Source of the DNA: Pseudidiomarina piscicola
GTDB lineage: Bacteria > Pseudomonadota > Gammaproteobacteria > Enterobacterales > Alteromonadaceae
Direction: 5' to 3'
Assembly: GCF_902806985.1 (NCBI RefSeq)
Contig: NZ_CADCXY010000002.1
Location: forward strand, 310,001-374,000
Length of the DNA stretch: 64,000 bases
In this document: one piece after another, positions 29,684 to 48,809 of the stretch
Layout: each line of letters opens with the position of its first letter
Position numbering within the stretch: the stretch's first letter is position 1
Notes under the pieces: generated by a model
What the model was told of the DNA's origin: nothing
Seen by the model: only the letters and a program-made list of their open reading frames with translations
Database searches by the model: none
Position numbers and translations under genes: made by a program

Positions 29684-29881
29684 TCACAGCTTGTCCAGCC
29701 ACGCTTTTACATCCTGGTAGCGAAAGCGAACGGCTCGGCCATTGGGATTTGGCTTCACTGGTGCCGGAAACCGGCCTTGCTTTACGTAGCGCCGTAAAGT
29801 TGCCTGTGACATTTTCAAAACAGTGCAAACTTCCTCATAGGTCAGCAAACACTCTTTTGAGGTGGTTATCTGTTTCTTCAT
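29684..29881 (-). CDS. AlpA-like helix-turn-helix regulator
   Basis: 65 residues from the ATG at 29881, preferred over the longer frame from 29974 because AGGAG sits 6 bases upstream. The HTH reads LLTYEEVCTVLKMSQATLRRYVKQGRFPAPVKPNPNG with RFRYQDVKAWLDKL closing the wing, as in AlpA/excisionase-type regulators. It heads the AlpA-DUF927-HTH unit and is a candidate recombination directionality factor or activator. Confidence 0.82.
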   Translation of the reverse strand: MKKQITTSKECLLTYEEVCTVLKMSQATLRRYVKQGRFPAPVKPNPNGRAVRFRYQDVKAWLDKL

Positions 29882-30110
29882 GACTACTCCTGATTTTTTG
29901 TGAATCAATCGGGGGTAATCATCGGAAATATTCGTCTTGGGGGAGAACCGTGGAATTGCCCTTAAAGGGCACAAAGGCGAGGGTGGATGATAACTTGTTG
30001 ATAATTAATAGATAAAAATCAAAATAAATTAAAAAAAACAAGTCATTACTGGAAATTTATGGCTTGCGCGAGTGGGTTTTGCGCATTTTATGATCAAATT
30101 AGCTATGTGT

Positions 30111-30192: not shown

Positions 30193-30681
30193 CTAACCTG
30201 AAAATGGTAGCTGTTTACCATCTGACACTTCGGTAATGCCTATTCCCGCTAGAAAGCCGAAGAGCAACGAACAAAAAATCAATGACAAGGTAAACCAAAA
30301 TAGTACACTTCGTTTTGTAGCTCCCATTGCCATAGCAAATGCGGCCGCAGCATGGACCCCAATAAGAAAAGGACCAAGAAAAGCTAAGCCAGGAACACCG
30401 AACTTTTCAAGAATTCGGTGTTTTCTGTCTTTACGTTCAGGTACGGATTCAGCTATATCATCAGTTTCAGATTTTTTTAGCCAACGGCGGACAAAAGCAG
30501 TTACTTTTTCACTGGCGTAGATAATCGGTAGTAAAGATACAAGGTTGCCGATAAAGCCAACCATAGCTGCGGGGAACCACGGCAAACCGGCCACTACTCC
30601 TAAAGGTACGGCAATCCACACTTCCAGAACCGGAATCGCGGCCCCAACAAATACACTTACATAAAGCATCAACTCATTCAT
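30193..30681 (-). CDS. Small multi-drug export family membrane protein
   Basis: 162 residues from the ATG at 30681, supported by AGGA eight bases upstream; the longer open frame runs into the RND gene. It shows about four membrane segments and a basic cytoplasmic loop (KKSETDDIAESVPERKDRKHR), with GVPLGV-like and FGVPGLAFLGPFLIG stretches typical of the Sm_multidrug_ex family (PF06695). The function of the family is poorly tested. It starts 10 bases after the RND stop, so it belongs to the efflux operon. Confidence 0.75.
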   Translation of the reverse strand: MNELMLYVSVFVGAAIPVLEVWIAVPLGVVAGLPWFPAAMVGFIGNLVSLLPIIYASEKVTAFVRRWLKKSETDDIAESVPERKDRKHRILEKFGVPGLAFLGPFLIGVHAAAAFAMAMGATKRSVLFWFTLSLIFCSLLFGFLAGIGITEVSDGKQLPFSG

Positions 30682-30691
30682 GAAAAAGTTC

Positions 30692-33600
30692 CTACGCGTT
30701 CGCGCTCTTTTTATTAAAAAACAGTACATACAGGCTTGGAACAACGATAAAAGATGCCACGGTTCCCGAGATAAGTCCGCCCATAATTACAACATTAAAC
30801 GATCTCCATAAGGGATCATTCGCTATGAGTAACGGAAGAAGTCCAAGTATCGTTGTTATTTGGGTTAACATAATTGGACGAAATCGTTCCATCAAAGCCG
30901 ATTTAAGGGAATCGAGCTCAGATTTCCCCGATTCTTTTTCAATATCGACCTGCTCAATAATTAACATAGCATTCGATACAATAATCCCTATTAAGGCGAA
31001 TATGGCCAGATTCGCCATAAAATCGAAAGGAAGACGGAAGATAACTAGCGCGAGCAGCAAGCCGATGGCACAAAAAGGTACGCTCAAGACGATAATTGTC
31101 ACTTTTCTAAACGAATTATACTTATAAATAAACAGTATAATCATTGCTAAGATACACAATGGTAAGAAAGCAAATATCGCTTCTGCTGTAACTTCACTTT
31201 CTTCAATCTCACCACCAAACTGTACTTGAACGCCAAATTGCTCTTTTACTTCATCAATAGTGTTTGATATGGAGTTAACTAATTCTTTTGATGTCATTGA
31301 AGGATTCAATGCTGTCACCGTGACCGTCGGTGTTAGGTTGCGCTTCTTAATAAGTGACGGATCATGCCTGGTTTCAATGATCGCTATATCAGATAGATAT
31401 ACCGGTTTAGACGAGGACTCGGGGAATACTTGGATATTCTCCAATTGAGATAATGATAAATTCTCCGATAAATTCGTGCTCAGTACGATTGGAATTTGAT
31501 ACTCGCCCTCCCGAAGTACTGAGGCATTTTCTCCCAAACTATGTTCACGGAGTGCTAATAAGATATCCTCACGAGTCACCCCTGTGGATAGAGCTGCGGG
31601 ACGATCAACCTTTACCAGAAAGTTCGTAACGGAACGTTCCCAATCTTGCTTTACGTTAATAGTGTGCTCTACCTCGTTGAGAGCTCCTTGAATAGCATCT
31701 GAAGCCTTTAGAATATTCGATTGCTTGTTACCAATAAGACGAATAGCGGCCTCTCCTGGCGGCGTGGAGCCCATAAAGAACGGGTTGATTTCGAGTTCGG
31801 CAAAAGGATACTCAGGAGGCATTTCTGCTCTTAGTTTATCGACAAACTCGCTGACAAGCGTATCTTTGGTGACGTTTACAACAAAATATGCCGAGTGAGG
31901 TGCTGGTTCAGGAGGGTTTAAACCAAGGATAAAGCGCGGTCCGCCTTCACTTACATAAGCTGTTGCACCTGTAATTTCCGGGAACCGATCATCATTACTT
32001 AGCCACTGAGTCATCTCTTCAGCTACAGCAGCCGTTTGTTCCGCTGGCGTGTTCGCTGGCAGCTCAACAGAAATCTGTAGTTGAGAACGTTCTGAAGGCG
32101 GGAAGAACGCCTCTGGGATGGTGCTTGACACAAACAATGCCACTACAAGACTTAAAACCGAAGCACTTAGAAACAACTTCGGACGCGAAATAACCTTGTC
32201 CCAAAAGGAAGACATTACGTTCATTACATAGGAAGGTTTACCGCCAGAGATCCCCCGGGTCTTGGACGATTGATTGATAAACCATTTAGCCATGATTGGT
32301 GTTAACATCGTAGCGACAAACCATGAAACAAGCAGCATCACACCAATGACAATAGTTAGTGTCTGCATATAAATAGCAGTAATATTGTCAGTGAACACCG
32401 GGGGAGCAAAAGCCAATATCACGGTTAAACTAGCAATAAGAATGGGCGTCCCCAGAGTCTTTCCCGCAGATAAAGCAGCCGACTCTCTCTCCTCGCCTTG
32501 CGCTACCCTTTTTGAGATGTCTTCAACAATGACCATGGGATTGTCAACGAGTATACCTAAGGCAATGATGAACGACGCAATGCTTACTTCGTTGAGTTCT
32601 ACGCCAAAAATTCTTAGAAAAACTAACGTGATAACACCCGTGACAGGAACAGCCAGTGCCACCAAAGATCCCGCACGAAGACCCAAGGCAAGTACAGTGA
32701 CGATCGTCACCACTAGAATAGTTTCGAGCAGCGTTGAAATCATTTTCGATATCACTTGATCAACGACTTTCCCCTGATCAGTGATGGTTTTCATTTGGTA
32801 ACCTACCGGTAGCTCACTCCCCCATTCGTCCAGCTTACGGCGCAGTTGCTTGTTAAAATCCACCATATTAAGCCCAGGCGCCATATAACCAGCAACAACA
32901 ATGGCCTGATCACCATCAAGGTATGCTGCACTATTCAGAGGTCTAGCCGGAACCCTGGTGACATCGGCAATATTTTTCAACGGAAGCATAGATCCGTCTG
33001 GTAGCGATATCACGGTTTCCTTAACTTCAGCCAGTTCGTCATAACTGCTCTCAACAAAAATTCGGCTTTGCTGAGTATCAAAATTGATACGCGCTACTTC
33101 CCCGAGAGAATTGCTCTTACTCAGTTGTAAAAAGATGTCATTAGGGTTCAGCGCATACTGTGATGCCACAAACGGCTTAAGTTCTATTGATATCTGTTCA
33201 TCGGTAACACCGTGCAACGTAACTTTGTCCATCCCTGGAATACTATAAAGATAATTGCGAAGCTCATTTGCCTTGTCCCTCAACTCTCTAAAAGAATAAT
33301 CCGTTGCACTTAGCGCTACTGTCATCACGGCTACCGCATCGTAATTATCATTAACGAATGGCCCTGATACCCCCTCCGGCAACTCAGTAAGTACATCGTG
33401 CATTCTCGCTCTGACTCTAAGCCACGCATGCGAATAACTTGGCGTACCATCTTTTATTTCAAGAGAGAGATAAATTTCTCCTGCCCTTATTGAGGTCGTA
33501 ATATTTTTCGTTTCTTCTAATTCTCGCAACGCTCGCTCAATTGGTCGTGCAATAAGGGCTTCTGTCTCATAAACATCTAAGGCTGGGTGGTAAGCCGTTA

Positions 33601-33739
33601 TGATGGTTTGGTTGATAGGTAAGGTGGGCTCCTCCCGAGAAGGGTAATCCGGATATAATGCCAGACCCGTGATCGTTAGTATTATGAAAATAAATAAAAC
33701 AAGTCGGCTGTTTTTTATCGAAAAAGCAGTAATAGACAT
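30692..33739 (-). CDS. RND-family efflux transporter permease
   Basis: 1015 residues with the AcrB-type layout: TM1, a large periplasmic loop, TM2-6, a second loop and TM8-12. TM4 reads LGILVDNPMVIVED and TM10 reads IGIIVSNAMLIIE. Compared with AcrB, D407 is kept (D399 here), D408 becomes N400, and the lysine corresponding to K940 is S922, so the proton relay is atypical. It exports drugs or other compounds with the upstream membrane-fusion protein and probably a chromosomal TolC. Its ATG overlaps the MFP stop by one base. Confidence 0.92.
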   Translation of the reverse strand: MSITAFSIKNSRLVLFIFIILTITGLALYPDYPSREEPTLPINQTIITAYHPALDVYETEALIARPIERALRELEETKNITTSIRAGEIYLSLEIKDGTPSYSHAWLRVRARMHDVLTELPEGVSGPFVNDNYDAVAVMTVALSATDYSFRELRDKANELRNYLYSIPGMDKVTLHGVTDEQISIELKPFVASQYALNPNDIFLQLSKSNSLGEVARINFDTQQSRIFVESSYDELAEVKETVISLPDGSMLPLKNIADVTRVPARPLNSAAYLDGDQAIVVAGYMAPGLNMVDFNKQLRRKLDEWGSELPVGYQMKTITDQGKVVDQVISKMISTLLETILVVTIVTVLALGLRAGSLVALAVPVTGVITLVFLRIFGVELNEVSIASFIIALGILVDNPMVIVEDISKRVAQGEERESAALSAGKTLGTPILIASLTVILAFAPPVFTDNITAIYMQTLTIVIGVMLLVSWFVATMLTPIMAKWFINQSSKTRGISGGKPSYVMNVMSSFWDKVISRPKLFLSASVLSLVVALFVSSTIPEAFFPPSERSQLQISVELPANTPAEQTAAVAEEMTQWLSNDDRFPEITGATAYVSEGGPRFILGLNPPEPAPHSAYFVVNVTKDTLVSEFVDKLRAEMPPEYPFAELEINPFFMGSTPPGEAAIRLIGNKQSNILKASDAIQGALNEVEHTINVKQDWERSVTNFLVKVDRPAALSTGVTREDILLALREHSLGENASVLREGEYQIPIVLSTNLSENLSLSQLENIQVFPESSSKPVYLSDIAIIETRHDPSLIKKRNLTPTVTVTALNPSMTSKELVNSISNTIDEVKEQFGVQVQFGGEIEESEVTAEAIFAFLPLCILAMIILFIYKYNSFRKVTIIVLSVPFCAIGLLLALVIFRLPFDFMANLAIFALIGIIVSNAMLIIEQVDIEKESGKSELDSLKSALMERFRPIMLTQITTILGLLPLLIANDPLWRSFNVVIMGGLISGTVASFIVVPSLYVLFFNKKSANA

Positions 33740-34878
33740 TATCGTACTTCCTCAGCCGGTCGAACCTTCTGACCCTCACTGATAAAGGCAGCACCCGCAG
33801 CAACATACGAATCTCCTTTCTGAAGATCACTTTTAATCCAGTAGCCACCTTCTTCAGCGTTAACAATACGGATGCCTGCTTTACTAACTCTCCCGGTTTT
33901 TTCGTTGTACTGGTAAACAAAAGGATTCCCATCAGTAGGCTCAGCAACAACAGCACTGTGAGGCACAAATATCGCGCCTTCTCCGTCGGGCATTCGATAA
34001 CTGACGCTAACCACTAATCCTGGCAAAGGGCGTTTTTCTCGGGAAGTGTCGAGACGAAGTCTAACGGGGAAATTTAATCCCTCGTTTGCTCGCTCACCCA
34101 AATGCTCGACGGTGGCATTAAAATATGACCCCCGATAGTTCACTGTGATCTCTAGTTCTTTGTCATTTGATATATACTCTGCCAGATCACCGGGAATTGA
34201 TGAGTCAACGATGAACTTCTCCATGCCGTCAAATGTAAAAGCGACTTGATTTGCAGTGACTTCTTCGAAGGGTTCGACACTACGACTTGAAATGACCCCA
34301 TCATAGGGTGCCTTGATAGCGGTTTTAGAAAGGTTTCGCTCTGCAAGCCTGATTTGTGCCAGGGCATCACGGAGCGTCGATTGAGCGTTTTCGTATGTCG
34401 ATCTGGCAGCATCTAAATTCTGTTCAGATACAGAGTTATTTTCACGCAACCGCACGAGTCGCTCATAATTTGTTTTAGCTTCTTCAAATGTAACCCGCGC
34501 TTTCTCAGCTTCAGAGCGAGCGCTCTCAAGGGCAAGCCTATAGGGCTCCTGATCCAGAACAGCCATCACATCTCCGGTGTTGAGCTGCGCGCCAATATCG
34601 AAGAGAACGTCGTTCACTGTACCATCAACACCAAAAGACAATTGGCTTCGGTTTTCTGTCTGTGTCACTCCTGGAAAACGAATGCTATTAACATAAGCAT
34701 CGTCGGCCACACTGTTAATCGATACGGCTCTTACGTTTTCTGTAGCAGTTTGGGTCGGTTCTTCACTACAGCCCTGTAACAGCAGTAAAGTACAAATAAG
34801 CATGCCTAATACGAAAACTCGATTAGCCCGTGCATAATAAATATGTAACTGATCATTTATATAAATAAGCGATGTCAA
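33739..34878 (-). CDS. RND efflux membrane fusion protein (lipoprotein)
   Basis: 379 residues from a TTG at 34878 with AGGA about 9 bases upstream; no in-frame ATG gives a complete signal. A signal peptide ends in the lipobox LLLQGC. Then come a lipoyl/barrel-sandwich half (VNDVLFDIGAQLNTGDVMAVLD), a coiled-coil hairpin (about residues 105-175) and beta-barrel and membrane-proximal domains, as in AcrA/MexA. It links the RND pump to an outer-membrane channel. It sits 26 bases after the TetR gene. Confidence 0.9.
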   Translation of the reverse strand: MTSLIYINDQLHIYYARANRVFVLGMLICTLLLLQGCSEEPTQTATENVRAVSINSVADDAYVNSIRFPGVTQTENRSQLSFGVDGTVNDVLFDIGAQLNTGDVMAVLDQEPYRLALESARSEAEKARVTFEEAKTNYERLVRLRENNSVSEQNLDAARSTYENAQSTLRDALAQIRLAERNLSKTAIKAPYDGVISSRSVEPFEEVTANQVAFTFDGMEKFIVDSSIPGDLAEYISNDKELEITVNYRGSYFNATVEHLGERANEGLNFPVRLRLDTSREKRPLPGLVVSVSYRMPDGEGAIFVPHSAVVAEPTDGNPFVYQYNEKTGRVSKAGIRIVNAEEGGYWIKSDLQKGDSYVAAGAAFISEGQKVRPAEEVR

Positions 34879-35953: not shown

Positions 35954-38053
35954 TCAATCAGCATCGTTCCCCATCTGCTTTTCGAACGCCTGTCGAATGA
36001 GCCCCATTACATAGGCCAGCTCAGATTCCTCACTTAACCCTACTTCTACATCGCCATTTCCCCAACGTCCGAGGTTGGTCACGTCACGAGCCATCCCTTT
36101 CGGATCGCTCAACTCGTGAAACGGCATATTCAGAGACAGTCGCAAACGGGTCTTTTGCGGGACCACATCGACAAAGTTCGTCTCGGCTTTGAACGCTATA
36201 TAGAGCTTGAGAACTTCTTCAGTGACGCTCGGGTCGAGCGCCTGGACTTCCTTTCGGAGCTGCTCAAATAGAGCGCGCATTGGGGTCCCGTTTGCTAGTT
36301 GAGGGTGATCCTCAAGATTGTAGGCTTCTGGTTTGACGGCCACGTTGCGGTAGGTATCGAGGATCTCGTCCGGCAATACCGGAGCCGCCCAAACCCGCAC
36401 CGCTTCCTGGGCCAGCTTGGCGGCCCGATTCTTAATTGAGTCCTCATTCCATGCTTCTACAGCTCCCAGGCCCTCGTTGAGCCGTAGAGGGCTTTGTTTG
36501 AATCCGCCCTGCATATCGCGCTTCTCGATGAAAGCTCGGTCGCTGTACTCTGAGTTGTAGCCCGTAAGAGTCAGGTTACCCAGCGTATGCAGCCAGGTTT
36601 CATGCACACGCTTCCATTCCGGACCTAGCTCATCCTTCCATCTAGCAGACAGATTCTCATTCTGCGGCATGATGTGTTCAATCGTGTATTCGTCGACCGG
36701 AACCCGCTCCTTGCGCTCGAAATTCTCCAGGCGGCGTAACCAGTAACTCCGGCTGCGGAAATTATAGAGATCGCGTACTGCCAGTTCCCTTTTGAACTCT
36801 TCGTCATTCGGAAAACGCCGGTATGACTTCAAACCGAGCAGGTGAGCCTTGACGCTCTCCAGGTAACGGTTCTTCTGCAATGATTTGTGAAAGGTCGCAA
36901 AGGTCTTGTTCAGCGAGTTTGTGGGGATGGCACAAACGGCACGACGGAACACATAAGCCTCGATCAGCCGAATAGCGCTATGAAAGTCATCTTGGGACAG
37001 ATTGTCCTGTTGGTAATCATGGTAAAGTTCCAACAGAAACGGATATGCCACATCGACTTTGAGTTCACGCAGATCTTTAAATGCCATTCCGAGCTGTTTA
37101 TCTGTTTCTTTCCCCAATGCCATCGCACAAAAATACCGAGCGAAAGCATGTATTTCGGCAACCAATGAATCGACACCAGCACTCGCAACTTCGGCGCGAC
37201 GTGAATGCTGTTTGAAAGCCTCGTACACTTCATCTAACCGTGGAATTTCCCCGGTTTTAACCGTGAGGTAGTGACGCATGAAGCTGTCAAAGTAAACGCC
37301 ATAGCCTTCTTGCCCGAATTCCACCTCCATCGGACGCCAGTGGTCGCGATAGAGCCGAGTTTGATGCTCCGGCTCCAGTCCCATCAGCACATAGTTCCGG
37401 ATCAGGTCAGCCTGGCTCAAAGCTTTTCCTGTGGAATTCATGCTCTCAAAAATGAGTTGCGGGTTATCCTGGTCTCGGCTCAGCGCAATATCAACGATGA
37501 TGAGCTTTGAAAGGCCCCGGCAGAGGGTTTCCAGTTCCCCGTTTAGCCGCTCAATCTGGCTGTTGAAGAACTCGAAGTTTTCTTGGATTCGAGGAGAACC
37601 GTCATCAGGTAACGGCTTCTGCGTGACCAACGCCAGCAGGCTCTCTTTGTCCGTCTGGGTCAATAGCAGTTTGTAAGCTCGCTCACCGTCTTCCAACGGG
37701 TTAAGCAGGTAGTAATTGCGCAGCTTCTTAGCCGAAAACCCCTCCAGAGTCTCTGTGTTCCCAAGGTGTCGAGATAGCGCCTCAAGAATCAGCATGGTGG
37801 TAGTCAGTCGCTGTTGCCCATCAATGACCAGCAATGGTGATTGACTGGACACCTGATAAAGCCCCTTCTCGATGTAGACCACCGAGCCAATGAAATGTGC
37901 TGATATACCATCGTTGGTGCCGGCTCGCATAATGTCGTCCCACAGTTGGCGACATTGCTGTTCAGACCAGGAATACGTTCTCTGGTAAATCGGAATGACA
38001 AATTGTGGCGACTTCTTCAGGAAGTCGAGCAACTTGGCTTCTGTAGCTTTCAT
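35954..38053 (-). CDS. GmrSD-type (DUF262-DUF1524) restriction protein
   Basis: 699 residues. The N-terminal DUF262 (GmrS-like) region shows IPIYQRTYSWSEQQ, a nucleotide-related DGQQR motif at residues 78-82 and GSVVYIE. The C-terminal DUF1524 (GmrD-like) region shows YTIEHIMPQNENLSARW with H460 and HTLGNLTLTGYNSEYSD, the His-Me type nuclease core. Fused GmrS and GmrD halves form type IV restriction enzymes that cut modified phage DNA. It follows an HsdR remnant by 27 bases, in a defence region. Confidence 0.88.
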   Translation of the reverse strand: MKATEAKLLDFLKKSPQFVIPIYQRTYSWSEQQCRQLWDDIMRAGTNDGISAHFIGSVVYIEKGLYQVSSQSPLLVIDGQQRLTTTMLILEALSRHLGNTETLEGFSAKKLRNYYLLNPLEDGERAYKLLLTQTDKESLLALVTQKPLPDDGSPRIQENFEFFNSQIERLNGELETLCRGLSKLIIVDIALSRDQDNPQLIFESMNSTGKALSQADLIRNYVLMGLEPEHQTRLYRDHWRPMEVEFGQEGYGVYFDSFMRHYLTVKTGEIPRLDEVYEAFKQHSRRAEVASAGVDSLVAEIHAFARYFCAMALGKETDKQLGMAFKDLRELKVDVAYPFLLELYHDYQQDNLSQDDFHSAIRLIEAYVFRRAVCAIPTNSLNKTFATFHKSLQKNRYLESVKAHLLGLKSYRRFPNDEEFKRELAVRDLYNFRSRSYWLRRLENFERKERVPVDEYTIEHIMPQNENLSARWKDELGPEWKRVHETWLHTLGNLTLTGYNSEYSDRAFIEKRDMQGGFKQSPLRLNEGLGAVEAWNEDSIKNRAAKLAQEAVRVWAAPVLPDEILDTYRNVAVKPEAYNLEDHPQLANGTPMRALFEQLRKEVQALDPSVTEEVLKLYIAFKAETNFVDVVPQKTRLRLSLNMPFHELSDPKGMARDVTNLGRWGNGDVEVGLSEESELAYVMGLIRQAFEKQMGNDAD

Positions 38054-38451: not shown

Positions 38452-41367
38452 TTATCGCTTGAAAGCGTACTTACGCTCTCGCTCTTCGAATGCAAGTTGC
38501 CCCCCCTCTAGAACCTCGCAAATATGCTCTCTAATGCCGAATTTCTTAAGCAATGAAGGCGCATCTGGTTCGAAAAACGTGCACTCCATGGCGCCGGAAA
38601 CATATTCGAATCTAAATTGCTCGTTTTCCATATCATGCTGCTGGCCAGCCTGATTCGCGACGATAACACATTCGGAATCCGTGGATACAACCATATTAGC
38701 GTTGTGAGTGACCATGATGATTTGTCTTTTCTCTTTCCTTTCCCTAATAAAGTCGCGGAGTTCATTATAAACTGTTCGGTTATCTAAATTATCTTCAGGC
38801 TGATCTATAAGTATAGGGTGAGAGGAATTGCTCAAGTGTAGTATGAGATGGAGAAGCACCAGTCCTCGCTTACCGGGCGACATGCTGATAATGTCGTCAT
38901 TTTTATAAAGCAAGTTAAAAGATATGTAAAAGCAATCCTGAAGTAGATTTCTAAGGATTAGTTCCTCGTTCGCACTCTTTCGAACTTTATGGGCGATCTG
39001 GGAGAAATCTCGAACCTTCTCGCTCAGGGTGAATATAGAGTCTAAATGCGTGTCTTTTGAGTAAATATAATTGTTTTCACTATCAATCGAGTCGCCTAGA
39101 ATACTTGCAAGGCTTCCTCTGGCATCAAAACAGTTTATGAAAGAATCGAAACTATTGTGATCGAATTCTAGGCTAGCTTGAAGCGTTATATTTTCATTGT
39201 CTATCTTCGCAGCACCATTGAAAAGCGCCTCTATTTCACCATATGTGTCAAACAACTGCTCATACAGGGCTTTAAGCTGATCAGAAGCTGCTTTTCCTTG
39301 TTCGAGAGTGCTTTTGACCTTCTTGCCTGCTTCTTGAATAGCTCTAAGCTTAGCTTCTTCCCGTTTTTGCGCCTCTAGAAGTCCTTTCAATTCGTTTTGG
39401 CTTTTTACTTTAGACGAGAATTTTTCAAGACTTTCCGTGGTATTTATAATTCTTTCATCTAGCGAGCCTATCAAGCTATTAGCGCGGCGAATGTTCTTTC
39501 CCGCTTCTATTGGCAGGTCATCAATAATTTTCTGAATCTTAGCCAGTGTTATCTGAACAAGGCGGCTTCCAGTGTGAAACCGTTTTTTTTCTGACTCTTC
39601 AGAATTCGTCATAAGAGCTACGTTTCTAAACGAGTCTTCCATCTCTCTTACTAATTCATTTTTTAGCTCAGTGTGTATTTCAATATATCTTAAAAGAGAC
39701 GAACGCCTTTTTTCACTAACTGACAATCTGTCGCTAAGCTTTTTATAAATCTTGCTTTCTTCAGGAGTAAAACCTGATGATTTTTTTATTTTTTCTATTT
39801 TTTCTTTTATTTTTTCTCTTTCATTATTTACCGAATTCTCAGCTCCTATTTTTTCCTTTTCGCTCTTTTCTTTTGCATACTTGTGTCTGAGGGATACAAG
39901 TTTTGTAACCTGTGTACTGATGCTCTCATTCAACGAATCACATTTTTTAAAAAGCTCTTCAGCATCTAGCTTTATTTCCCTGTCTTGATATAGAATTTCG
40001 AGTACAAGCTCATTGAGTTGATCTCGACCACTTTCCTCGGCTAATTTATTTATATATAGCTGAGGTATATAGGTTATTGGTCGTTGGTCGTTTGTTTCTC
40101 TAAAGCTTTGTTTAGTGTTGTCGTTCCAAGTGATTTCAAAGTCGAAATTTGATTCATTTTCAAATTCTGGATAAGTACTTGCCTTTGCTAGATCACACTT
40201 CTTTACGGTTTCCTCTTTGTTTGCCGTCCTTGAAATATGATAGAGTAAAAGCGATTTCCCTGAGGATTTGCCACCAATAATCGAATTTAAATCCGAATTT
40301 AATTCTATTTTATATTCAGGAAAAATATTTTTCCCACTGGAATCTTTGAATCGAACAGAGTCTATAACTTCATAGCTTACCTTATCGCCAGGGCAGGTAT
40401 CTTGAATAGCAACCCGTGACCTCGGCTCAAATACTACCTGCTTGAGGCCCTCAAAAGTAAGATCAGCCTTTATCCAAGTGTTATTTTCTTCGTCAGGCTC
40501 AAAAAGTGTGTCGTATGCATGTGCATCAGAACCCCATATACAAGCTTTAGGTAAGCCAAATTCTTTTCTGAAAGAGGTAGGATTATCGTGATAATCTCCG
40601 AGCAAGAAGCTTCTCGTACGCTTGTTAGATGAGAATATCAGTTGGCTCTGTTGAATAAGTGTCTTCCGAGTACCGTGACCGGCCGAGTTCCAACTTACTC
40701 TGCTGAGGTCTTCGTCACACGGCAAAGCTAACAAGTAGTTTTTTTTGAATCTTCCATCTTCGGTGAGCAGTTCTGCTATTTCGCTTGTATTGACCGAGGC
40801 ATTGCAGATCCCTACCGCAAGGGCAGATTGGCCTCTAAACTCGGGGTGTTCTTCAATTAGTCTTTCACCATATTCTATCAAGTTTTCTTTGGTTAAGGCT
40901 CTTCTCTCTGCTTTAAGCCCTGTTTCAGCGTGAGTTTCAAACTGTATTCTAGATAAAAACTCTCTTTGGATTAATGTGGGAGACAATTCATTGGAAAGGA
41001 TAACGTGGAAGTTGGTCCGCCTATTCCATTTTAAGTCGACCTCTTTGCCTACTACGAGTTTGTCCAAGCGAAACTCGAGATTTGGGAAAATAGCAATATT
41101 CTTAATTTTCCTGATTTCATCCTCATCAAATAGCTCAGATAGTTTATCATCGTTGAGAATATAGTCTTCGACTACTTTTTTATAGCCGTCAAGAAGGCAA
41201 TAGTCGGTCAGGCCAATGGCACTTACATTATGATCTATTGCTGACCGAAAGAGTTTTCTGACGTAATTGTCAAAGTCGTCGCCGAACTGGTTGTTCAGAA
41301 TTGAAAATGGGGTATGGACATGGAGGTCCCACTTTCTCCAAATTGATCCTTTTGAGCAGTTTTTCAC
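38452..41367 (-). CDS. TrlF-like PHP domain-SMC ATPase
   Basis: 971 residues from a GTG with GAGGG just upstream. The N-terminal PHP phosphoesterase domain shows DLHVHTPFS (D14, H16, H18), GLTDY, and GSDAHAYD near residue 283. Then Walker A GGKSSGKSLLL (K371), a coiled coil of roughly residues 470-730, and an SMC/ABC head: signature MSPGKRGLVLLHLIL, Walker B PILIDQPEDNLDNR and IMVTHNANMVV. This PHP-plus-ATPase layout matches the TrlF family, found in defence islands; the target is unknown. AT-rich, unlike the flanking chromosome. Confidence 0.88.
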   Translation of the reverse strand: MKNCSKGSIWRKWDLHVHTPFSILNNQFGDDFDNYVRKLFRSAIDHNVSAIGLTDYCLLDGYKKVVEDYILNDDKLSELFDEDEIRKIKNIAIFPNLEFRLDKLVVGKEVDLKWNRRTNFHVILSNELSPTLIQREFLSRIQFETHAETGLKAERRALTKENLIEYGERLIEEHPEFRGQSALAVGICNASVNTSEIAELLTEDGRFKKNYLLALPCDEDLSRVSWNSAGHGTRKTLIQQSQLIFSSNKRTRSFLLGDYHDNPTSFRKEFGLPKACIWGSDAHAYDTLFEPDEENNTWIKADLTFEGLKQVVFEPRSRVAIQDTCPGDKVSYEVIDSVRFKDSSGKNIFPEYKIELNSDLNSIIGGKSSGKSLLLYHISRTANKEETVKKCDLAKASTYPEFENESNFDFEITWNDNTKQSFRETNDQRPITYIPQLYINKLAEESGRDQLNELVLEILYQDREIKLDAEELFKKCDSLNESISTQVTKLVSLRHKYAKEKSEKEKIGAENSVNNEREKIKEKIEKIKKSSGFTPEESKIYKKLSDRLSVSEKRRSSLLRYIEIHTELKNELVREMEDSFRNVALMTNSEESEKKRFHTGSRLVQITLAKIQKIIDDLPIEAGKNIRRANSLIGSLDERIINTTESLEKFSSKVKSQNELKGLLEAQKREEAKLRAIQEAGKKVKSTLEQGKAASDQLKALYEQLFDTYGEIEALFNGAAKIDNENITLQASLEFDHNSFDSFINCFDARGSLASILGDSIDSENNYIYSKDTHLDSIFTLSEKVRDFSQIAHKVRKSANEELILRNLLQDCFYISFNLLYKNDDIISMSPGKRGLVLLHLILHLSNSSHPILIDQPEDNLDNRTVYNELRDFIRERKEKRQIIMVTHNANMVVSTDSECVIVANQAGQQHDMENEQFRFEYVSGAMECTFFEPDAPSLLKKFGIREHICEVLEGGQLAFEERERKYAFKR

Positions 41368-41574: not shown

Positions 41575-42147
41575 TTAGGATTCTGGAGGCCGAAGGCCAT
41601 CGAAGTGCGCCTCCAAACTGTCCAACTGCTTCAGGTTTGCCCTGACGAGACGGCGCATGTGAGTGAGGTTTGCATTCATGATACGCACTATCTCAAACCC
41701 GGCTTCGGTCTCCTCAATGATGGGCCTTTCCCAGTCGTGAGCGCGGTTAAATGCGGGTTTTGAGTACCGGTGTTTCAGGGCACGGCGGATGTGTTCACTG
41801 AAAACCGCATGTCCCTTACCGTTTTTCACTCTTACGAAGGTGTTGTAGTACCAGTGCATTTCCAAGCTGCCGTGCAGCATTCTCACCCGGCAGCCGTGAT
41901 GGCCAGGATAGCCTCTCGTTTCTTTGGTTCGATGAGCCTCATTATGCGCCCAGAAATGGTCCGACAGTCGCTGAGCGAGATAGCGAAGGCGCGCTCGCTC
42001 CATATCCAGGCTTTTGGAAAGTGATTGTAGATACTGTCTGCATTGACCAAGTGCCATTCGGCGCCCCTGATGATGGTCAAACTCCCCGGCGCGCGCCACC
42101 TCATGCCACTTATCGGTGATTTCCTGAATGGTTTTGGGTTTGCTCAT
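41575..42147 (-). CDS. MobI-like conjugative transfer protein
   Basis: 190 residues from the ATG at 42147, chosen because AGGAG lies 7 bases before it; the ATG two codons earlier is too close. The body (GYPGHHGCRVRMLHGSLEMHWYYNTFVRVKNGKGHAVFSEHIRR, DWERPIIEETEAGFEIVRIMNANLTHMRRLVR) fits MobI(A/C)-type proteins, the oriT-recognition factors of SXT/R391 elements and IncA/C plasmids. That family call is from recognition of the pattern. If right, the island's oriT should be close by and SXT- or IncC-like helpers could move it. Confidence 0.62.
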   Translation of the reverse strand: MSKPKTIQEITDKWHEVARAGEFDHHQGRRMALGQCRQYLQSLSKSLDMERARLRYLAQRLSDHFWAHNEAHRTKETRGYPGHHGCRVRMLHGSLEMHWYYNTFVRVKNGKGHAVFSEHIRRALKHRYSKPAFNRAHDWERPIIEETEAGFEIVRIMNANLTHMRRLVRANLKQLDSLEAHFDGLRPPES

Positions 42148-42255
42148 TAGCATTCTCCTGTTGGTTGATGTTCAAGAGAAATGCTACTGGCCGCAGAGAC
42201 AAACCCACGGGTCTGTAATTTGCCAATTTGGGCAAAAGTAGCCGTTTACCCCAGA

Positions 42256-42452: not shown

Positions 42453-43082
42453 CTATGCTGCACCTGACTGCTTTTGTTCCTTTGCGACAGAGGCAATCAG
42501 ATGGCGCGAACAACCCAAGATGTCCTGGATTTCGTTATAGCTATGGCCAGTGCGCAGTAAACTGGCGATGTGTTGCCGCCTCTTCAGATCAGGCTGACGC
42601 CCCTGATACTTACCCTCGCTGCGAGCCTTGTTGATCCCTTGATTCTGTCGGCGACGTCTGTCCTCATAGTCTTTCCGGGCTACCGCTGCCAACATGTCGA
42701 GCATCATGCTGTTGACCGCCTGCAAGATAGATTCGGTAAAGCCGGTGTCGTCTTTCTTGTCCAGAGCCAGCCAACTCGTTGGTAACTCGGGCGAGACAAT
42801 CGCCAACCGCTTGGCTGCCAGCTTCTGTTTGAGCGTATCCCAGTCCTGCTGTTTAAGGCGGGCAAGCCGGTCTATCTGCTCTACCAGTACAATGTCACCT
42901 TCACCAGATTCGGCAATCAGTCGCATCAGTTCGGGACGATGCAATGTGGCACCGGAGACGTTCTCGGTATAAAAGGCAGCAATGCGCTGACCGTGTTGCT
43001 CGGCAAACTGGATTAGCGATGCTTTGGCCCGCTCGGCATTTTGTTCCTGGGTCGATGCTCTCAAATAGGCGCGTATAAACAT
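42453..43082 (-). CDS. Serine recombinase (resolvase/invertase family)
   Basis: 209 residues. The N-terminal catalytic domain has the nucleophile S10 in IRAYLRASTQEQNA, then LVEQIDRLARLKQQDWD and a helix leading to a C-terminal HTH (RRQHIASLLRTGHSYNEIQDILGCSRHLIASV). Small serine recombinases of this size resolve or invert DNA on plasmids and transposons. It could resolve island multimers. Two 20-bp direct repeats lie directly upstream of its start. Confidence 0.9.
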   Translation of the reverse strand: MFIRAYLRASTQEQNAERAKASLIQFAEQHGQRIAAFYTENVSGATLHRPELMRLIAESGEGDIVLVEQIDRLARLKQQDWDTLKQKLAAKRLAIVSPELPTSWLALDKKDDTGFTESILQAVNSMMLDMLAAVARKDYEDRRRRQNQGINKARSEGKYQGRQPDLKRRQHIASLLRTGHSYNEIQDILGCSRHLIASVAKEQKQSGAA

Positions 43083-43592: not shown

Positions 43593-43662
43593 GGTTTCAG
43601 TCCCCGATAGTTCTTTACTTCGAAGCTATCAGAACCTGAGAAAATGCAAGTTTCGACCGGCG

Positions 43663-44076
43663 TCAGGCCGCTCTGGCTCGCCCGGCGAGCCATGGCACTT
43701 TCAACTTGCTGTAGGCATCATTTGTCATCGACCTCAAATCTCCCGCATCAAGGTGTGGAACCAGCCACGCACTGCCTTGGTATCGAACTCTCGGGTAATT
43801 GGATGGCTGGAATACGCCATGAGGGAGGTCGTCCTCATCGCCCAGCCACTGCCTGAGCCGGATATCGATACTCCAGCCCTGTTCGAGCTCGATCCAACAA
43901 TGGGGAGCAGTGACCATTAGGCTCAGTCGGTCCTCTGCGTATCCGATACGGCATTGATGGAAGATGCCTTGCTCGCTCAGGGCATTGCTGATCACAGAGG
44001 TCATGCAGTCGCTATCGATTTTGGCGTCTTCAAGCGGCAACAGCGCGAACTCCAGTTCATCATGCCAGTCACTCAT
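43663..44076 (-). CDS. Small protein with a possible transglutaminase/papain-like fold
   Basis: 137 residues. No family is certain. The spacing of C24 (DCMTSVISNAL), H59 (APHCWIELEQGWSID) and D71 resembles the C-H-D triad of transglutaminase-like proteases and amidases. RLRQWLGDEDDLPHGVF follows. It overlaps the lipoprotein by 8 bases, so the two are translationally coupled. The catalytic idea is inference from motif spacing only. Confidence 0.5.
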   Translation of the reverse strand: MSDWHDELEFALLPLEDAKIDSDCMTSVISNALSEQGIFHQCRIGYAEDRLSLMVTAPHCWIELEQGWSIDIRLRQWLGDEDDLPHGVFQPSNYPRVRYQGSAWLVPHLDAGDLRSMTNDAYSKLKVPWLAGRARAA

Positions 44077-44917
44077 GATCTGGCTCCTTGAACATCAGTC
44101 GCTGCCCCTGCTCGTACAGCACAGGGTACGGTAGCGGTTCGCCATCCTGGGTGACGGTGCCGGGAGGAAAGTACACCACCATCCAGGATGGTAAGGCACC
44201 ACTGATCGTGCGGTAGAACTCGTCCACAGGGAAGCTGAGTTGCTCATCTGACTGCCGGAAAACAAGGCGGGAATAATTCTCTGGATGATTGGCCGCAATG
44301 TTGTAGCTTTCAGGCTCAGCGCCTTCCACGTAGGCCGGAGACTTCCAGCGATTCGGCGTTTTGATGTTGTAAGCAACCACACATTGACCAGCACCGCATC
44401 CATGCTCAGTGCTTTCAATCGACCAGAGCATCAGTGGATGGCCGTCAATCTCAGGCGTTTCCACGTTACTGAGTTTGGTGGCACTCAACGCCATATCATT
44501 GGCAGCTACCCGGATGGCCTGGTCAACCAGATTTACATACTGCTCATAGGCCTGAGCCTCTGAAGTGGCCATCGACGCAGGCATCCATCCCATCAGGCTT
44601 GGTCTCGCCGATGGATTGTCCGGTGTCATCAGGATGTCGGTAGCGTTGAACAAAAACGTTTGGTTACCCGATAGATGTCGAAGCGGTGCACCGAATGAGG
44701 TCGCCAGGCTGGCGAGATCCAGTAATGGCACCAACATGCCTTTATTGTAGGAGCGGGTACCATCCTCAGAATCCCGCAAGTCCATATCGTAGATGCCACC
44801 GGCTCTCGCCAGGTTTAAGGCCCGAGACTCTTCCGGATTGTAAGCTCGTGGGGTAGCCGCGCAGCCAGCCAGGGCAGCGGCCAATATTGCCGTAGTTAAG
44901 GGTGCTAATCTTTTCAT
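44069..44917 (-). CDS. Lipoprotein of unknown function
   Basis: 282 residues with a lipoprotein signal peptide (lipobox LAGC: MKRLAPLTTAILAAALAGCAAT). The mature part has no recognised domain; it holds four cysteines in the second half, including the pair in EHGCGAGQCVVAY. It probably sits in the outer membrane. It is the first of a three-gene run with the transglutaminase-like and membrane proteins, and a palindrome at 44941-44962 lies 24 bases before its start. Confidence 0.65.
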   Translation of the reverse strand: MKRLAPLTTAILAAALAGCAATPRAYNPEESRALNLARAGGIYDMDLRDSEDGTRSYNKGMLVPLLDLASLATSFGAPLRHLSGNQTFLFNATDILMTPDNPSARPSLMGWMPASMATSEAQAYEQYVNLVDQAIRVAANDMALSATKLSNVETPEIDGHPLMLWSIESTEHGCGAGQCVVAYNIKTPNRWKSPAYVEGAEPESYNIAANHPENYSRLVFRQSDEQLSFPVDEFYRTISGALPSWMVVYFPPGTVTQDGEPLPYPVLYEQGQRLMFKEPDHE

Positions 44918-44940
44918 TATGTCCTCCTGCTTTCATTAAA

Positions 44941-44962
44941 TATTCTCATGAGGTTGAGAATA
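44941..44962. promoter_or_regulatory. Palindrome upstream of the lipoprotein gene
   Basis: TATTCTCA and TGAGAATA are perfect inverted arms with a 6-base spacer (TGAGGT). It is placed as an operator for the lipoprotein run. Confidence 0.5.
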
Positions 44963-45057
44963 TGCAAGAGGAAAAATAAAAATAATCTTTATAAATCAAT
45001 AGTTTGTACTGATAGAACAAAGTTCCTTTCGCTCAAACATATAACGACAGACACACT

Positions 45058-45115
45058 GCCGTTACGTTGAAGCTCATGTGTTGTAAAACACTATAAAATG
45101 GTAGATGGTAACGGC
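45058..45115. repeat. Inverted repeats in the leader of the VPA1262-like gene
   Basis: GCCGTTAC (45058-45065) and GTAACGGC (45108-45115) are perfect inverted arms 42 bases apart. Between them lie a GTGTT/AACAC mini-hairpin and TATAAAAT, a possible -10. The gene's ATG is 53 bases further on. Confidence 0.5.
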
Positions 45116-45167
45116 GAGGAACGTACCAAATTACATAGTAGATACAAGTGCATAAATCGGGGCAAGA

Positions 45168-48100
45168 ATGAATAAAGCGTTTAAAGACAATAAGGTCAGC
45201 ACAACATTAAAAGACCTAATAGGTGACACTAGGCTGGCTCGCTTATTCTACGGTGATCCTCGGCCATGCGCTGTACAGCTTTGGATTCTTCAAGTTCATT
45301 CCACAGAAACGACTAAAAACCGGATTATCTATGGTCGTGTAGTACCATACTCACATTCTAATAATTCTTGGTCTTTCAGCAATAATGACAAATTTACGAA
45401 TCTTGAACATTGCAGAGCGAAAATAACCCGGCTTAATCTGTACATCGGTAGCAATTTATTAAGTGATTTTCTGGAAATGCTTTGTGATGGAGTTAATATT
45501 TCCACGATAAGCGATACTTTAGGTCTTGAGCGAAAAAATAAGTTTGATGAGAAGTTTGGCACAATATTTTTAGATCCAAAAAAATTAGTTTATAAACCCG
45601 TAATATATCTTCTTAACAAGGATGCGTTCGAACTTCACTCGACTACTAGCCCCCATGGAGCAGCGGGTGCCATTAGCGCATCGATCACTCAAGTAGATAA
45701 ATCATCTCTCTTCCAGGACAACCATAATTATCGTTCCGACCTTACAAAGTTTATCGTCGAACATCTAAATTTTGACACTGGATTGAACTTTGAAGATAAC
45801 GATAAAGTGCGATTTGGTGATATTGAGTTTCTCGTTTTTCCGACTTTAGATGAAAAAGAGAAAAATTTACTTGAAGTTGTTTGGGGCGATGAAAGACGGA
45901 AATTAAGCGTTAAATTCGACGCCAAGAATCTTCCTAACTACCCTGATTTTCTATTCAACATTAAGATCTATAACAGCGGTCAAATTATATACTCAAGGAT
46001 TGCAAATGCGAAACAGTACGACAACCGCATATATATGCGCGAGTTTGATATTGATAGAACAGTTAGATCCATCGCTGACTCTACTGAACTAGAAATCTAT
46101 GGTTTTAATGTCGAAGATAGCGAAGAAAATATATTATGTTGCAGGTGGCGCACTGGATATATTCGAGAAATAAATTTTCAAGCTAATGTGGTCGGTGGTA
46201 ATTCAAGCTCTGTTAAATTTGATTGGTTAGAGAACACGGTCAAAGAAAAGCAATCTAGCCGCGTGAAAGCAGTATTAACTAAAAACACAGGAAACCATGG
46301 GTTTGCTAGCCAAGTGGGCGGCCGGGAGGCTGACCCTTGGGTTGCTGTAAACCGCGAGCTAAGCCCTATTTTTAATAAACTGCACCCAAAAAAATCGGAT
46401 GCAAGGTTTTTCGAACGTTATGGACCAAGCGATGGTGAAGGCCGTTTACAATTTGTCGAATGGTTCAAAGCTCTCTTTTCAAAATATAACGACAGCCAAA
46501 TAATAATTTTCGATCCCTATTTTGATTCGGCTGGATTATCGTTGCTTTCTTTATATGCTGCGCCTAAGTGTAGCTACATAGTATTTACCTCACTACCAAA
46601 ACAAAAAGGTGACGAGGAAAACCCTACTAATCGTAATAGAGTAGACGATCTAGTTACTGCTTGTGAAAACAATAAACGAACCCTTTCAAAAATAAACCTC
46701 AGAATCATTGGCTTAAAAGACGGAAAGCTCCACGACCGATATATCCTGATTATAGGAAGCGATGGCTTACCAATAGTTGGCTTTAATTTATCAAATTCCT
46801 TGCAGAAAGTGGCAGAGAACTATCCCTTACTTATTACGCCGATACCATCTGATACTTTGTTAGAGGTTGAAAAATATAAAAGTGGCCTTTTGAAGGACTT
46901 AGAGGCAAAAACATCTGATTCTGAAGAAAACAACCCTGGATTAAGCAAACTATATGTTTCTTCCGAAGCTCCAGGGAAAAATGTAAGATACGAGCCACTA
47001 AAAATACTGAATAATGAATTAGCAGGCGACATCCTATCAATATGGGCTAACGAGCCTTCATTAACAGGATTATACGGTGCACCACTGAAAGACAAGTTGA
47101 TATCTCTTGAGCTATTAGAAGGGGACTCACTTAACTTGATCGATCCTCAGGGGTTCTTAGCCTGGGTAAAGAAAAAGGTCAGCTCTGAAGATTTCATGGA
47201 TCAATGGGAAGTGGTTGGTGAATTTTTGGCAAACTCTAGAGCTGGTGATACAGATTTTCAAGAAATATTAAGTGAAACCTCGTTCTTACAGAATCTCATG
47301 GGGTACCTTACTAAATCGATACAGCGCACCCATAAAGATCTGGATACTGATATAACTGTCTTAGAACCTCACCTATTTCAAAGACCAATTGAAAAGCTGC
47401 TGTGTAGCTCTTACCAGCTTCATCATATGTGCCATATGACTAAATATACAGCACTTACTTGGTCAGAATATTTTGCAATAAAACTGCTTTGGTCATATGA
47501 CCCAAAATCATTGTTAGAACTGGTTGCTGAAGAATCGCCTAAAATTCCGAAAGAGCCGGATCATGCTGACATAATTAGGCTGTCATTGTTAAGCCAAATT
47601 GTTAGCGAGATCTCCCTATCCATAGAGCTGCTACCAAACTATTCCCGCACATGCACTTTATTGAATAGTTGTAACGGTTTAATTCGATGGATGGGCTTAT
47701 ATGCTCTAGAGCAGATGATTGATCAAACTAAGGACGTCACATCAGAGCTGGGCTTGCTTTCAAGATTTGACCGCACGGAAAAGGTAAGATATTTAGGTTG
47801 GTTGGTGAACAGATCGGCAAATGATGAAAGAAAACGTGATCAATACGAGAAATTATTAGTCGCACTCAAAAGCGAACTACCAGAACAGCTATCTGGAAGT
47901 GATTTGAGGCACGTAATCGATTCGATGAGAGGCCATATGCGCCAATTACCATGGACAGAACCGTGGTTGTTTCGGGATCTAGTTTTACCTCTACTTCAAA
48001 GTGAGCAAGCTGATACGGATGATGCTTGCAAAATCTGGATCGAGGAAATCGTTTCATTGATAGGCCCAGCTGAAAGCAGGAATTCAAGACTGTTCCAACT

Positions 48101-48491
48101 TTCACGGGAAGGGCAGATGACAAATACTTGTGCATTTATCGTCGCTCATAGTACGCCTGAGCAACAAAGACAAGTAATTGAATTGATCAGACCCATTTTA
48201 AATAAGCAGAAAAGAGTTTTACAACAACCTCTGGCAAGTACGTCTAACTGGTCTTGTTGGAACGATGCTTTGGTAGTCTCAATGTGGATATTGGCATTCA
48301 CTAGGTGGTGTCAATACTATTTAACCGAAATGAAGCAAGCTAATGTAGAATTAGATAACTTGTCAGGAGAAGCAAGCGCCCTTGCAATGTTAAGGCCTAT
48401 GGAAGAATGGGAGTCAGAGGGGACAGGAAAAGACAGAGACCTGGCCTCATTCCTATCCCAAGCTGAAGATCTTCTTTCGCAGTCGGAGTAA
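45168..48491 (+). CDS. VPA1262-like large protein with PLD-like core
   Basis: 1107 residues. The N-terminal 350 resemble the VPA1262 family N-terminal domain (RLARLFYGDPRPCAVQLWILQVH, IIYGRVVPYSH, GVNISTISDTLGLE). A middle section has PLD-like features: IIIFDPYFDSAGL (D449, D453), and LHDRYILI with H522 and R524, a one-copy HxR variant of HxK, then GFNLSNSLQKV. The C-terminal 500 residues are alpha-helical without a known domain. It faces away from the minus-strand cargo, is AT-rich, and is the last island gene. I infer defence from context; no function is established. Confidence 0.7.
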   Translation: MNKAFKDNKVSTTLKDLIGDTRLARLFYGDPRPCAVQLWILQVHSTETTKNRIIYGRVVPYSHSNNSWSFSNNDKFTNLEHCRAKITRLNLYIGSNLLSDFLEMLCDGVNISTISDTLGLERKNKFDEKFGTIFLDPKKLVYKPVIYLLNKDAFELHSTTSPHGAAGAISASITQVDKSSLFQDNHNYRSDLTKFIVEHLNFDTGLNFEDNDKVRFGDIEFLVFPTLDEKEKNLLEVVWGDERRKLSVKFDAKNLPNYPDFLFNIKIYNSGQIIYSRIANAKQYDNRIYMREFDIDRTVRSIADSTELEIYGFNVEDSEENILCCRWRTGYIREINFQANVVGGNSSSVKFDWLENTVKEKQSSRVKAVLTKNTGNHGFASQVGGREADPWVAVNRELSPIFNKLHPKKSDARFFERYGPSDGEGRLQFVEWFKALFSKYNDSQIIIFDPYFDSAGLSLLSLYAAPKCSYIVFTSLPKQKGDEENPTNRNRVDDLVTACENNKRTLSKINLRIIGLKDGKLHDRYILIIGSDGLPIVGFNLSNSLQKVAENYPLLITPIPSDTLLEVEKYKSGLLKDLEAKTSDSEENNPGLSKLYVSSEAPGKNVRYEPLKILNNELAGDILSIWANEPSLTGLYGAPLKDKLISLELLEGDSLNLIDPQGFLAWVKKKVSSEDFMDQWEVVGEFLANSRAGDTDFQEILSETSFLQNLMGYLTKSIQRTHKDLDTDITVLEPHLFQRPIEKLLCSSYQLHHMCHMTKYTALTWSEYFAIKLLWSYDPKSLLELVAEESPKIPKEPDHADIIRLSLLSQIVSEISLSIELLPNYSRTCTLLNSCNGLIRWMGLYALEQMIDQTKDVTSELGLLSRFDRTEKVRYLGWLVNRSANDERKRDQYEKLLVALKSELPEQLSGSDLRHVIDSMRGHMRQLPWTEPWLFRDLVLPLLQSEQADTDDACKIWIEEIVSLIGPAESRNSRLFQLSREGQMTNTCAFIVAHSTPEQQRQVIELIRPILNKQKRVLQQPLASTSNWSCWNDALVVSMWILAFTRWCQYYLTEMKQANVELDNLSGEASALAMLRPMEEWESEGTGKDRDLASFLSQAEDLLSQSE

Positions 48492-48591
48492 CTCTGCTGT
48501 CATAGGGGCGAACAACTTGGCAGTCGGTCATACCATTCAATTAAGAGTGGATATTGACAGATGCAGAATAATCGAACAGGAGATACTTTAT

Positions 48592-48615
48592 GTTCCCAGT
48601 TTCCCACTTTTCCCA
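48592..48615 (-). repeat. Triple TGGGAA site, right copy
   Basis: Inverted copy of the left triplet with the same 9 and 8-base spacing and 22 of 24 identical bases, 131 bases inside attR. The pairing of sites near both ends suggests use by an excision or replication protein. Confidence 0.75.
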
Positions 48616-48690
48616 GGTCCTTAATGGGGAATCAGCATTCGGATCTACAGAAACTTGCAAATATTTAGACTTTTTTCGCAAATTTCAGCA

Positions 48691-48715
48691 CTCCGAGAGT
48701 GCTCCGAAAAACTTA
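48691..48715. repeat. Right arm-type inverted repeat of the island
   Basis: Reverse complement of 26312-26333 apart from a 1-base and a 2-base insertion. It ends 31 bp before attR, where integrase arm sites are expected. Confidence 0.6.
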
Positions 48716-48745
48716 CAAGGTACTGTTTTTAAAAGAAAACAAATA

Positions 48746-48763
48746 TTCTGTATCGGCAAATAA
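48746..48763 (+). repeat. attR: right attachment repeat
   Basis: TTCTGTATCGGCAAATAA reads FCIGK-stop, matching the left copy at 15 of 18 positions. It is probably the displaced original end of mnmE. The next 30 bases hold the hairpin that would have terminated mnmE. Confidence 0.88.
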
Positions 48764-48770
48764 AACCGCC

Positions 48771-48795: not shown

Positions 48796-48809
48796 GTTCG
48801 TGTTCGGTG

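Follow-up and report, generated by a model that had tools for sequence, protein, structure and literature searches.

What does a large protein at the edge of a mobilisable island do for its host or its element when its family has only a name? The question is raised by the gene at 45168–48491, on the forward strand of a stretch of 64,000 nucleotides from Pseudidiomarina piscicola (contig NZ_CADCXY010000002.1, positions 310,001–374,000), referred to here as the window. The gene encodes a VPA1262 family protein. We propose, with a probability of about 0.6, that VPA1262 is a self-contained, single-gene protein acting against mobile genetic elements, most likely phages, and that it belongs to the cargo of an MGIVchHai6-like island, at whose right end it lies. 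We read it as a single-protein effector of this kind because the gene is mobile and solitary, its core resembling phospholipase D (PLD) evolves slowly, and its settings are often rich in defence genes. Taken separately, a defence role is predicted as likely and a nuclease activity as plausible. The literature searched offers only the NCBIfam family name; the role as a PLD-type defence protein is a new prediction.

A full-length member of the VPA1262 family

The first-pass annotation had described an uncharacterised VPA1262-like protein of 1107 residues, and this holds. An open frame of 1107 codons occupies exactly the interval given above, whereas the longest open run found by chance in 2000 composition shuffles was 180 codons. 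The family model NF040699 (VPA1262_fam) matched with 1228.7 bits against a curated cut-off of 325, covering 1026 of its 1026 profile positions, and the domain model NF040700 (VPA1262_N_dom) reached 419 bits against a cut-off of 80. By these matches, the open reading frame (ORF) is evidently a real, full-length family member. The gene is also AT-rich, as had been noted, with a GC content of 0.397; the island has 0.463 and the remainder of the window 0.492. The long leader, also claimed at first, was not borne out as anything special: the gap upstream, to a divergent gene, is 250 bp, and promoter-like sites over 44700–48900 show no excess (11 versus 11.1 in shuffles). The protein has no PHROGs match and no strong whole-protein match to any described anti-phage component in PADLOC-DB 2.0.0, and a PDB profile search with an alignment of 15 members gave a single hit at chance level (E 0.91).

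Going by the locus tag, the family name presumably derives from VPA1262 of the Vibrio parahaemolyticus island VPaI-6. In the available text of PMC1464126, VPA1262 serves as a polymerase chain reaction marker of a genomic island, and the available text of a structural survey of the V. parahaemolyticus RIMD mobilome (PMC10734457) discusses other VPaI-6 proteins and not VPA1262. The literature searched, which is a part of all papers, held no functional description of the family, accession searches included; searches on PLD, solenoid, anti-phage, and ORF6N proteins, likewise not exhaustive, returned nothing bearing on it, the available text of PMC12839542 on PLD did not concern it, and the papers listed for NsnC were unrelated.

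A putative PLD-like core

Residues ~392–600 resemble a divergent PLD half-site, for which there is moderate support. The motifs D449-P450-Y-F-D453 and H522-D523-R524 are present as claimed. In the 15-member alignment, which includes the window protein and extends down to 21% identity to it, D449, P450, H522, D523, R524, G538, S542, N543, S544, and Q546 are the same in every sequence. Invariant residues are concentrated in the core (26/216), with 16/384 in the N-terminal and 7/507 in the C-terminal part. Of 32 N-domain sequences drawn from the three gene layouts described below, 31 have DP[YF], HDR, and one of [LF]SNS and GxS[LIV]N; the remaining sequence comes from a split copy, of which it is one half, and it keeps HDR and LSNS while its DPY lies on the other half.

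A template-free AlphaFold2 model of the core, for which the modelling input was 12 sequences, reached a predicted template modelling score (pTM) of 0.73 and a predicted local distance difference test score (pLDDT) of 72. In a Foldseek search with this model, 14 of the first 16 rows were phospholipases D or phosphatidylserine synthases (PssA), with a best E-value of 7.2e-3. An IMP-nucleotidase stood in row 3 and the restriction enzyme BfiI, a PLD-fold enzyme, in row 26; no unrelated fold, which by the first-pass annotation would have refuted its reading, was matched confidently. Among profile matches, one three-gene relative weakly matched NucT (19.6 bits, below the cut-off of 297), and the PADLOC model NsnC weakly matched the core in six of the 15 aligned members (best E 9.5e-6). 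Together with the core model, these weak matches support the PLD-like centre proposed at first.

Between the window copy and the copy at locus L002, which lies in a related Idiomarina island, the ratio of nonsynonymous to synonymous substitution rates (dN/dS) is 0.16 overall; the core gives 0.043 and the C-terminal half 0.41. The core value is the lowest of the four parts compared, which indicates that the strongest purifying selection acts there. In the same pair (45168–48491 versus L002:7183–10503), the synonymous rate is 0.46 in the core and 0.056 in the C-terminal half, and this eightfold difference suggests recombination between island copies.

The site departs from the textbook PLD motif, HxK(x)4D(x)6GSxN (available text of PMC11442185): VPA1262 has HxR, no Asp, and SNSxQ, and position 529, where the Asp would be expected, is I, M, L, H, R, T, or F among members. 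The HxR motif announced by the first-pass annotation is present, but it is not a canonical one. When aligned with the three-gene relatives, which read HDRFxxxD...G[SN]SLN and keep Asp and S-x-N alongside HxR, Q546 falls on the canonical Asn and S544 on a Ser. The main alternative, which we consider unlikely, is that the core is a non-catalytic scaffold: its phosphate pocket would hold nucleic acid or a component of the invader, and the protein would block or recruit rather than cut. The replacement of Lys by Arg and of Asn by Gln in HxK...GSxN, the lost Asp, and the protein BJ-TSA-9 at rank 4 of the core fold search are all compatible with such a scaffold; against it stand a His, Arg, Ser, and Gln set that never varies in the alignment, the low dN/dS of the core, and the canonical Asp and S-x-N of the three-gene relatives.

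Flanking regions and gene layouts

The architecture predicted for VPA1262 comprises a mixed alpha/beta N-terminal region (390 aa), the PLD-like core, and a helical part of 500 aa. From residue 610 onward, the full-length AlphaFold2 model is helical except for single bridge residues at 650 and 658, in agreement with the helical C-terminal 500 residues described at first, and the model is a poor, low-confidence one (pLDDT 62, pTM 0.38). Its weak Foldseek matches (~4e-3 to 5e-2) were solenoid and C2/TEAD-like, and they include HEAT/ARM solenoids, e.g., beta-catenin and importin beta.

VPA1262_N relatives occur in three layouts. Layout I, found in the window, is a single gene of ~1100 aa. Layout II consists of a gene of 487–544 aa and a neighbour of 449–700 aa (L050, L051, L052, L053, L054, L055, and L056); in L055, an insertion sequence lies between both genes, and L049 is of the same kind but with a stop. 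Layout III consists of genes of 513–604 aa, 160–254 aa (as called), and 639–658 aa (L047, L048, L057, L058, and L059), the short protein carrying HDR in four of the five. The N-domains are homologous by hhalign, with probabilities of 97.7% (I–II), 95.4% (I–III), and 99.3% (II–III), and NF040700 matches agree. No profile homology was detected by hhalign among the C-terminal half of layout I, the second protein of layout II, and the third protein of layout III, and a homology of the two-gene partner to the C-terminal half of VPA1262 was rejected as unsupported. Tentatively, VPA1262_N may be the core of an undescribed modular defence family with three layouts, an HxR plus S-x-Q/N variant of the PLD site, a homo- or heterodimeric site, and gating by a helical solenoid.

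In Paludibacterium denitrificans (L015:10164–13311), a second VPA1262 copy is split into two overlapping frames, with the intact copy L011 on the same contig; the split may reflect either decay of the gene or an error in the sequence.

Genomic neighbourhoods of the relatives

Among 102 neighbouring proteins (>=150 aa, within 8 kb, 13 loci), 196 PADLOC models matched at E<=1e-15, compared with eight among 102 control proteins, which were taken from 12 arbitrarily chosen stretches in eight genomes (seven of them from the neighbour-scan loci, with partial genome coverage); the models are redundant, and with 25 of the 196 shown and no breakdown by locus, the tally counts models and not distinct proteins. 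The comparison indicates that the relatives are enriched among known defence genes. Neighbours of defence type that were looked up singly are GajA at L048, a PtuA-type ATPase at L046, and an HsdR-like protein at L006. Annotated plasmid neighbours include restriction-modification (R-M), DUF4297, and reverse transcriptase genes at L052, and R-M, DarT, and reverse transcriptase genes at L041. In keeping with the context claimed by the first-pass annotation, many relatives lie in defence-rich or mobile DNA, including 17 plasmid records.

The 361 proteins encoded within 6 kb at 33 loci were compared for recurrence. Six loci share a recombinase family and three share one other cluster; the remaining recurrences are all pairs, shared by the window island and its L002 relative, by the Paludibacterium copies L011 and L015, by L006 and L008 (HsdR-like, 339-aa, and 70-aa upstream genes), and by a few scattered loci (transposases, helicases). 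Layout I has no general partner gene within this range, and because, recombinases aside, no neighbour family occurs in more than three of the 33 loci, the VPA1262 gene looks autonomous.

On the IMG/VR contig L042 (1–12153), the end of a bacteriophage exclusion type 3 (BREX-3) pglZ gene and brxA lie directly upstream of VPA1262; PglZ scores 219 bits, below the cut-off of 250, and is interrupted by the contig end, and the downstream frames resemble phage lysis and tail genes by eye. On a Rhizobium plasmid (L054:4054–9948), a two-gene VPA1262_N lies near an annotated cyclase of a cyclic-oligonucleotide-based anti-phage signalling system (CBASS) and an S-4TM effector, with one DUF2971 gene between.

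Several observations weigh against the proposed reading. The window protein has no Pfam match, and its sole match in PADLOC-DB 2.0.0 is a weak one to NsnC (18.6 bits, E 2.8e-4, aa 423–532). Foldseek returned nothing at E<=0.001 for the core model, for the low-confidence full model (best 1.3e-3, a nuclear-pore chain), or against viral models, where many rows are without a name. The PLD site itself may be non-catalytic, since the canonical Lys, Asn, and following Asp are all gone; BJ-TSA-9 points the same way, being FAM83A, a PLD-like protein that is not known to have enzyme activity. Order and size of the genes suggest a gene fusion behind layout I; the two- and three-gene forms are no proof of it because their C-terminal parts show no profile homology. 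The PADLOC tally does not assign its hits to loci, which belongs here as well. Some settings are housekeeping-like: the neighbours looked up at L012 include mnmE and YidC, VPA1262 follows a GMP synthase gene at L013, and the protein looked up beside VPA1262 at L045 is a lipoprotein. On plasmids, the annotation of the stretches L038 and L039 contains no recognised defence gene. Finally, a 587-aa protein near L014, guessed to be GajA, had no PDB match, GajA being found instead at L048.

VPA1262 might instead serve element maintenance or competition between elements, directed at islands or plasmids or working as an addiction module rather than against phages, which we regard as quite unlikely. 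That it adjoins the right attachment site (attR), has relatives on plasmids, and recurs with a recombinase family would suit such a factor, but the compared loci have no recurring small antitoxin-like partner, and MGIVchHai6-like islands are reported with diverse phage-resistance cargo (available text of PMC7449626).

The host island

The island spans 22.6 kb (26163–48756) within the 3' end of mnmE/trmE, with VPA1262 as its last cargo gene (Table 1). A TetR regulator is also among its genes, and the block of resistance-nodulation-division (RND) efflux and TetR genes spans 30193–35500.

Table 1. Features of the VPA1262 gene and its host island in the window.
Feature	Position	Strand	Basis
VPA1262 family protein, 1107 aa	45168..48491	+	open frame, NF040699 match
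PLD-like core (putative), residues 392–600 (DPYFD 449–453, HDR 522–524, SNSLQ 542–546)	46341..46967	+	alignment, core model, Foldseek
Helical C-terminal part, possibly HEAT/ARM-like solenoid (weak matches)	46968..48488	+	full model, Foldseek
mnmE	24807–26180		
Left attachment site TTCTGTATCGG, in 3' end of mnmE/trmE	26163..26173	+	11-base repeat
Tyrosine integrase of island	26351..27541	+	
xis-like HTH_17 protein, 114 aa	27587..27931	-	
DUF927 protein, 558 aa	27992..29668	-	
HTH_17 regulator, island backbone	29684..29974	-	
Cargo: small multidrug export protein, RND permease, RND adaptor	30193..34878	-	
GmrSD-type (type IV restriction) protein, independent cargo	35954..38053	-	
TrlF family PHP/AAA-like ATPase, independent cargo	38452..41367	-	576 bits, cut-off 350
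MobI mobilisation protein	41575..42153	-	
Serine resolvase/invertase	42453..43082	-	
Divergent neighbour, 282 aa, present in L002 island too	44069..44917	-	no family match above cut-off
Right attachment site, a copy of the left one, ~255 bp past VPA1262 stop	48746..48756	+	11-base repeat

A counterpart of the island lies at the mnmE gene of Marinobacter fuscus. The match is 99.96% over 35168–48763 (5 differences), with six differences over 26250–34252, and a 29000–45000 probe matches end to end at 100% (rounded by the tool). Just outside the island, mnmE is identical at about two thirds of positions (356 differences, 25131–26249); on the right flank, the match stops at 48763 and resumes only at 60747. 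The genomes are 2.5 Mb (window's host) and 4.1 Mb (M. fuscus) in size. Since the island is near-identical while the mnmE genes differ by about a third, it appears to have been transferred recently between quite different hosts. Two Idiomarina species carry related islands, matching ~41.5–48.76 kb at 93–96% and the GmrSD segment at 96–97%. The near-identical M. fuscus island and these related islands point to VPA1262 as recently mobile cargo. Against plasmids, the island DNA gave a single 109-base match only. Both the window island and that of M. fuscus contain the RND efflux/TetR block, which coincides with a gap at ~30164–35554 in the matches of both Idiomarina islands; because it is missing there, it looks like separately acquired cargo.

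The first-pass annotation had placed the gene beside a GmrSD protein, a PHP ATPase, and a restriction remnant in a defence-rich island. The first two are real, the ATPase being TrlF, but they sit 7.1 and 3.8 kb from VPA1262, with mobI and the resolvase gene intervening. The remnant was not borne out: the small ORFs at 35521–35799 and 38081–38401 have no Pfam match at E 0.1, the only search made of them. Defence or mobile DNA does surround the window gene and many relatives, but sharing a mobilisable island does not make one system; because the island is a recognisable mobilisable element, the presence of GmrSD and TrlF on it is no sign of a joint one. That VPA1262, TrlF, and GmrSD form a single multi-gene defence system, as their location within 13 kb of the same island might suggest, is highly improbable. 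MobI and resolvase genes separate them, and the Idiomarina islands (L002/L026/L027 and L004/L028) match the VPA1262 (from 41.5 kb) and GmrSD segments and not TrlF, for which no match was found in the stretches fetched. Of the window neighbours, only the recombinase recurs within 6 kb of relatives outside the L002 island, with GmrSD just beyond that range in the window, and GmrSD, at 0.516, is unlike VPA1262 in base composition.

Two copies bear on the mnmE/trmE site. In Pseudoalteromonas rhizosphaerae (L012:9419–13297), VPA1262 lies 0.55 kb after mnmE; a pattern search of the locus gave no second attachment sequence, and no integrase was recognised by eye. This may be an island that has decayed at the shared insertion site. 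A contig of a Dehalococcoidia metagenome-assembled genome (L003:386–3791) holds the greater part of a near-identical VPA1262, spread over two frames, together with a trmE-type attachment sequence, and is perhaps misbinned.

Distribution

Matches above the curated cut-off were found in 4 of 195 relatives (NF040699), 2 of 369 genomes of the class (NF040700), and 2 of 398 genomes of the phylum (NF040699), the window's own genome counted each time, and in none of 14 control genomes. The 17 plasmid records, all different, were reached with the window protein (5), a layout II probe (7), and a layout III probe (5). Phage records gave no match by tblastn, and neither did E. coli DNA; no viral contig was found with the window protein alone and one (L042) with the alignment. 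The N-terminal module occurs in Gamma-, Beta-, and Alphaproteobacteria, Campylobacterota, and cyanobacteria.

Proposed mode of action

If VPA1262 is a single-gene effector, it would act as a homodimer, because a single half-site cannot form a complete PLD active site; in the three-gene layout, a heterodimer with the second, HDR-bearing protein may take its place. His522 would serve as nucleophile, and Arg524 and Gln546 would stand in for the Lys and Asn of the canonical site. The helical half may be a sensor or regulator that senses or docks an invader product, and sensing would release a phosphodiesterase (nuclease) that acts on DNA or RNA. The outcome could be either cell killing or invader clearance. 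Such a protein would give a function to a named but uncharacterised family spread over the groups listed above, and bacterial immunity would gain a PLD variant with an altered catalytic signature. The mobilisable trmE island also carries its whole cargo almost unchanged between M. fuscus and the quite different host of the window.

Comparison with known systems

The available text of PMC7449626 describes 47 MGIVchHai6-related islands in 13 genera, with diverse phage-resistance cargo, and a prototype at trmE with a 114-aa xis, a 558-aa DUF927 protein (gene 86), and mobI. The window island shares with these islands the trmE site, int, a 114-aa xis, a 558-aa DUF927 protein, a helix-turn-helix (HTH) regulator, MobI, and a resolvase, and its 3' trmE integration is bounded by attachment repeats; it is recognisable by its layout as an MGIVchHai6-like mobilisable genomic island. 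MGIVchHai6 differs in cargo, the window island carrying RND efflux, GmrSD, TrlF, and VPA1262. SGI1-type TraN, TraG, and TraH and MpsAB had no Pfam match among the main island ORFs, in a scan that left out an 85-aa ORF (42181–42438) and used no dedicated model for MpsAB; MobI is there instead.

The VPA1262 family (NF040699/NF040700), of which the window protein is a full-length member, also occurs on genomic islands and is otherwise only a name. The PADLOC proteins NsnC and PDC-S05 have an HDR-type PLD-like core as in VPA1262, but the similarity is weak and limited to the core, and the overall proteins differ. PDC-S05 matched the three-gene relatives and L032, not the window protein; the match of L032, which is ORF6N-like by eye, is strong.

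PLD-fold nucleases and restriction enzymes (Nuc/NucT, BfiI, AgaP, which is associated with prokaryotic Argonaute, and also DrmC of the DISARM system) resemble VPA1262 in a His and a basic residue two apart, in S-x-[N/Q], and, as far as the core model goes, in the half-site fold. VPA1262 differs from them in having HxR rather than HxK, Gln rather than Asn, and no Asp, and its core has an N-terminal region of 390 aa before it and a helical part of 500 aa behind it.

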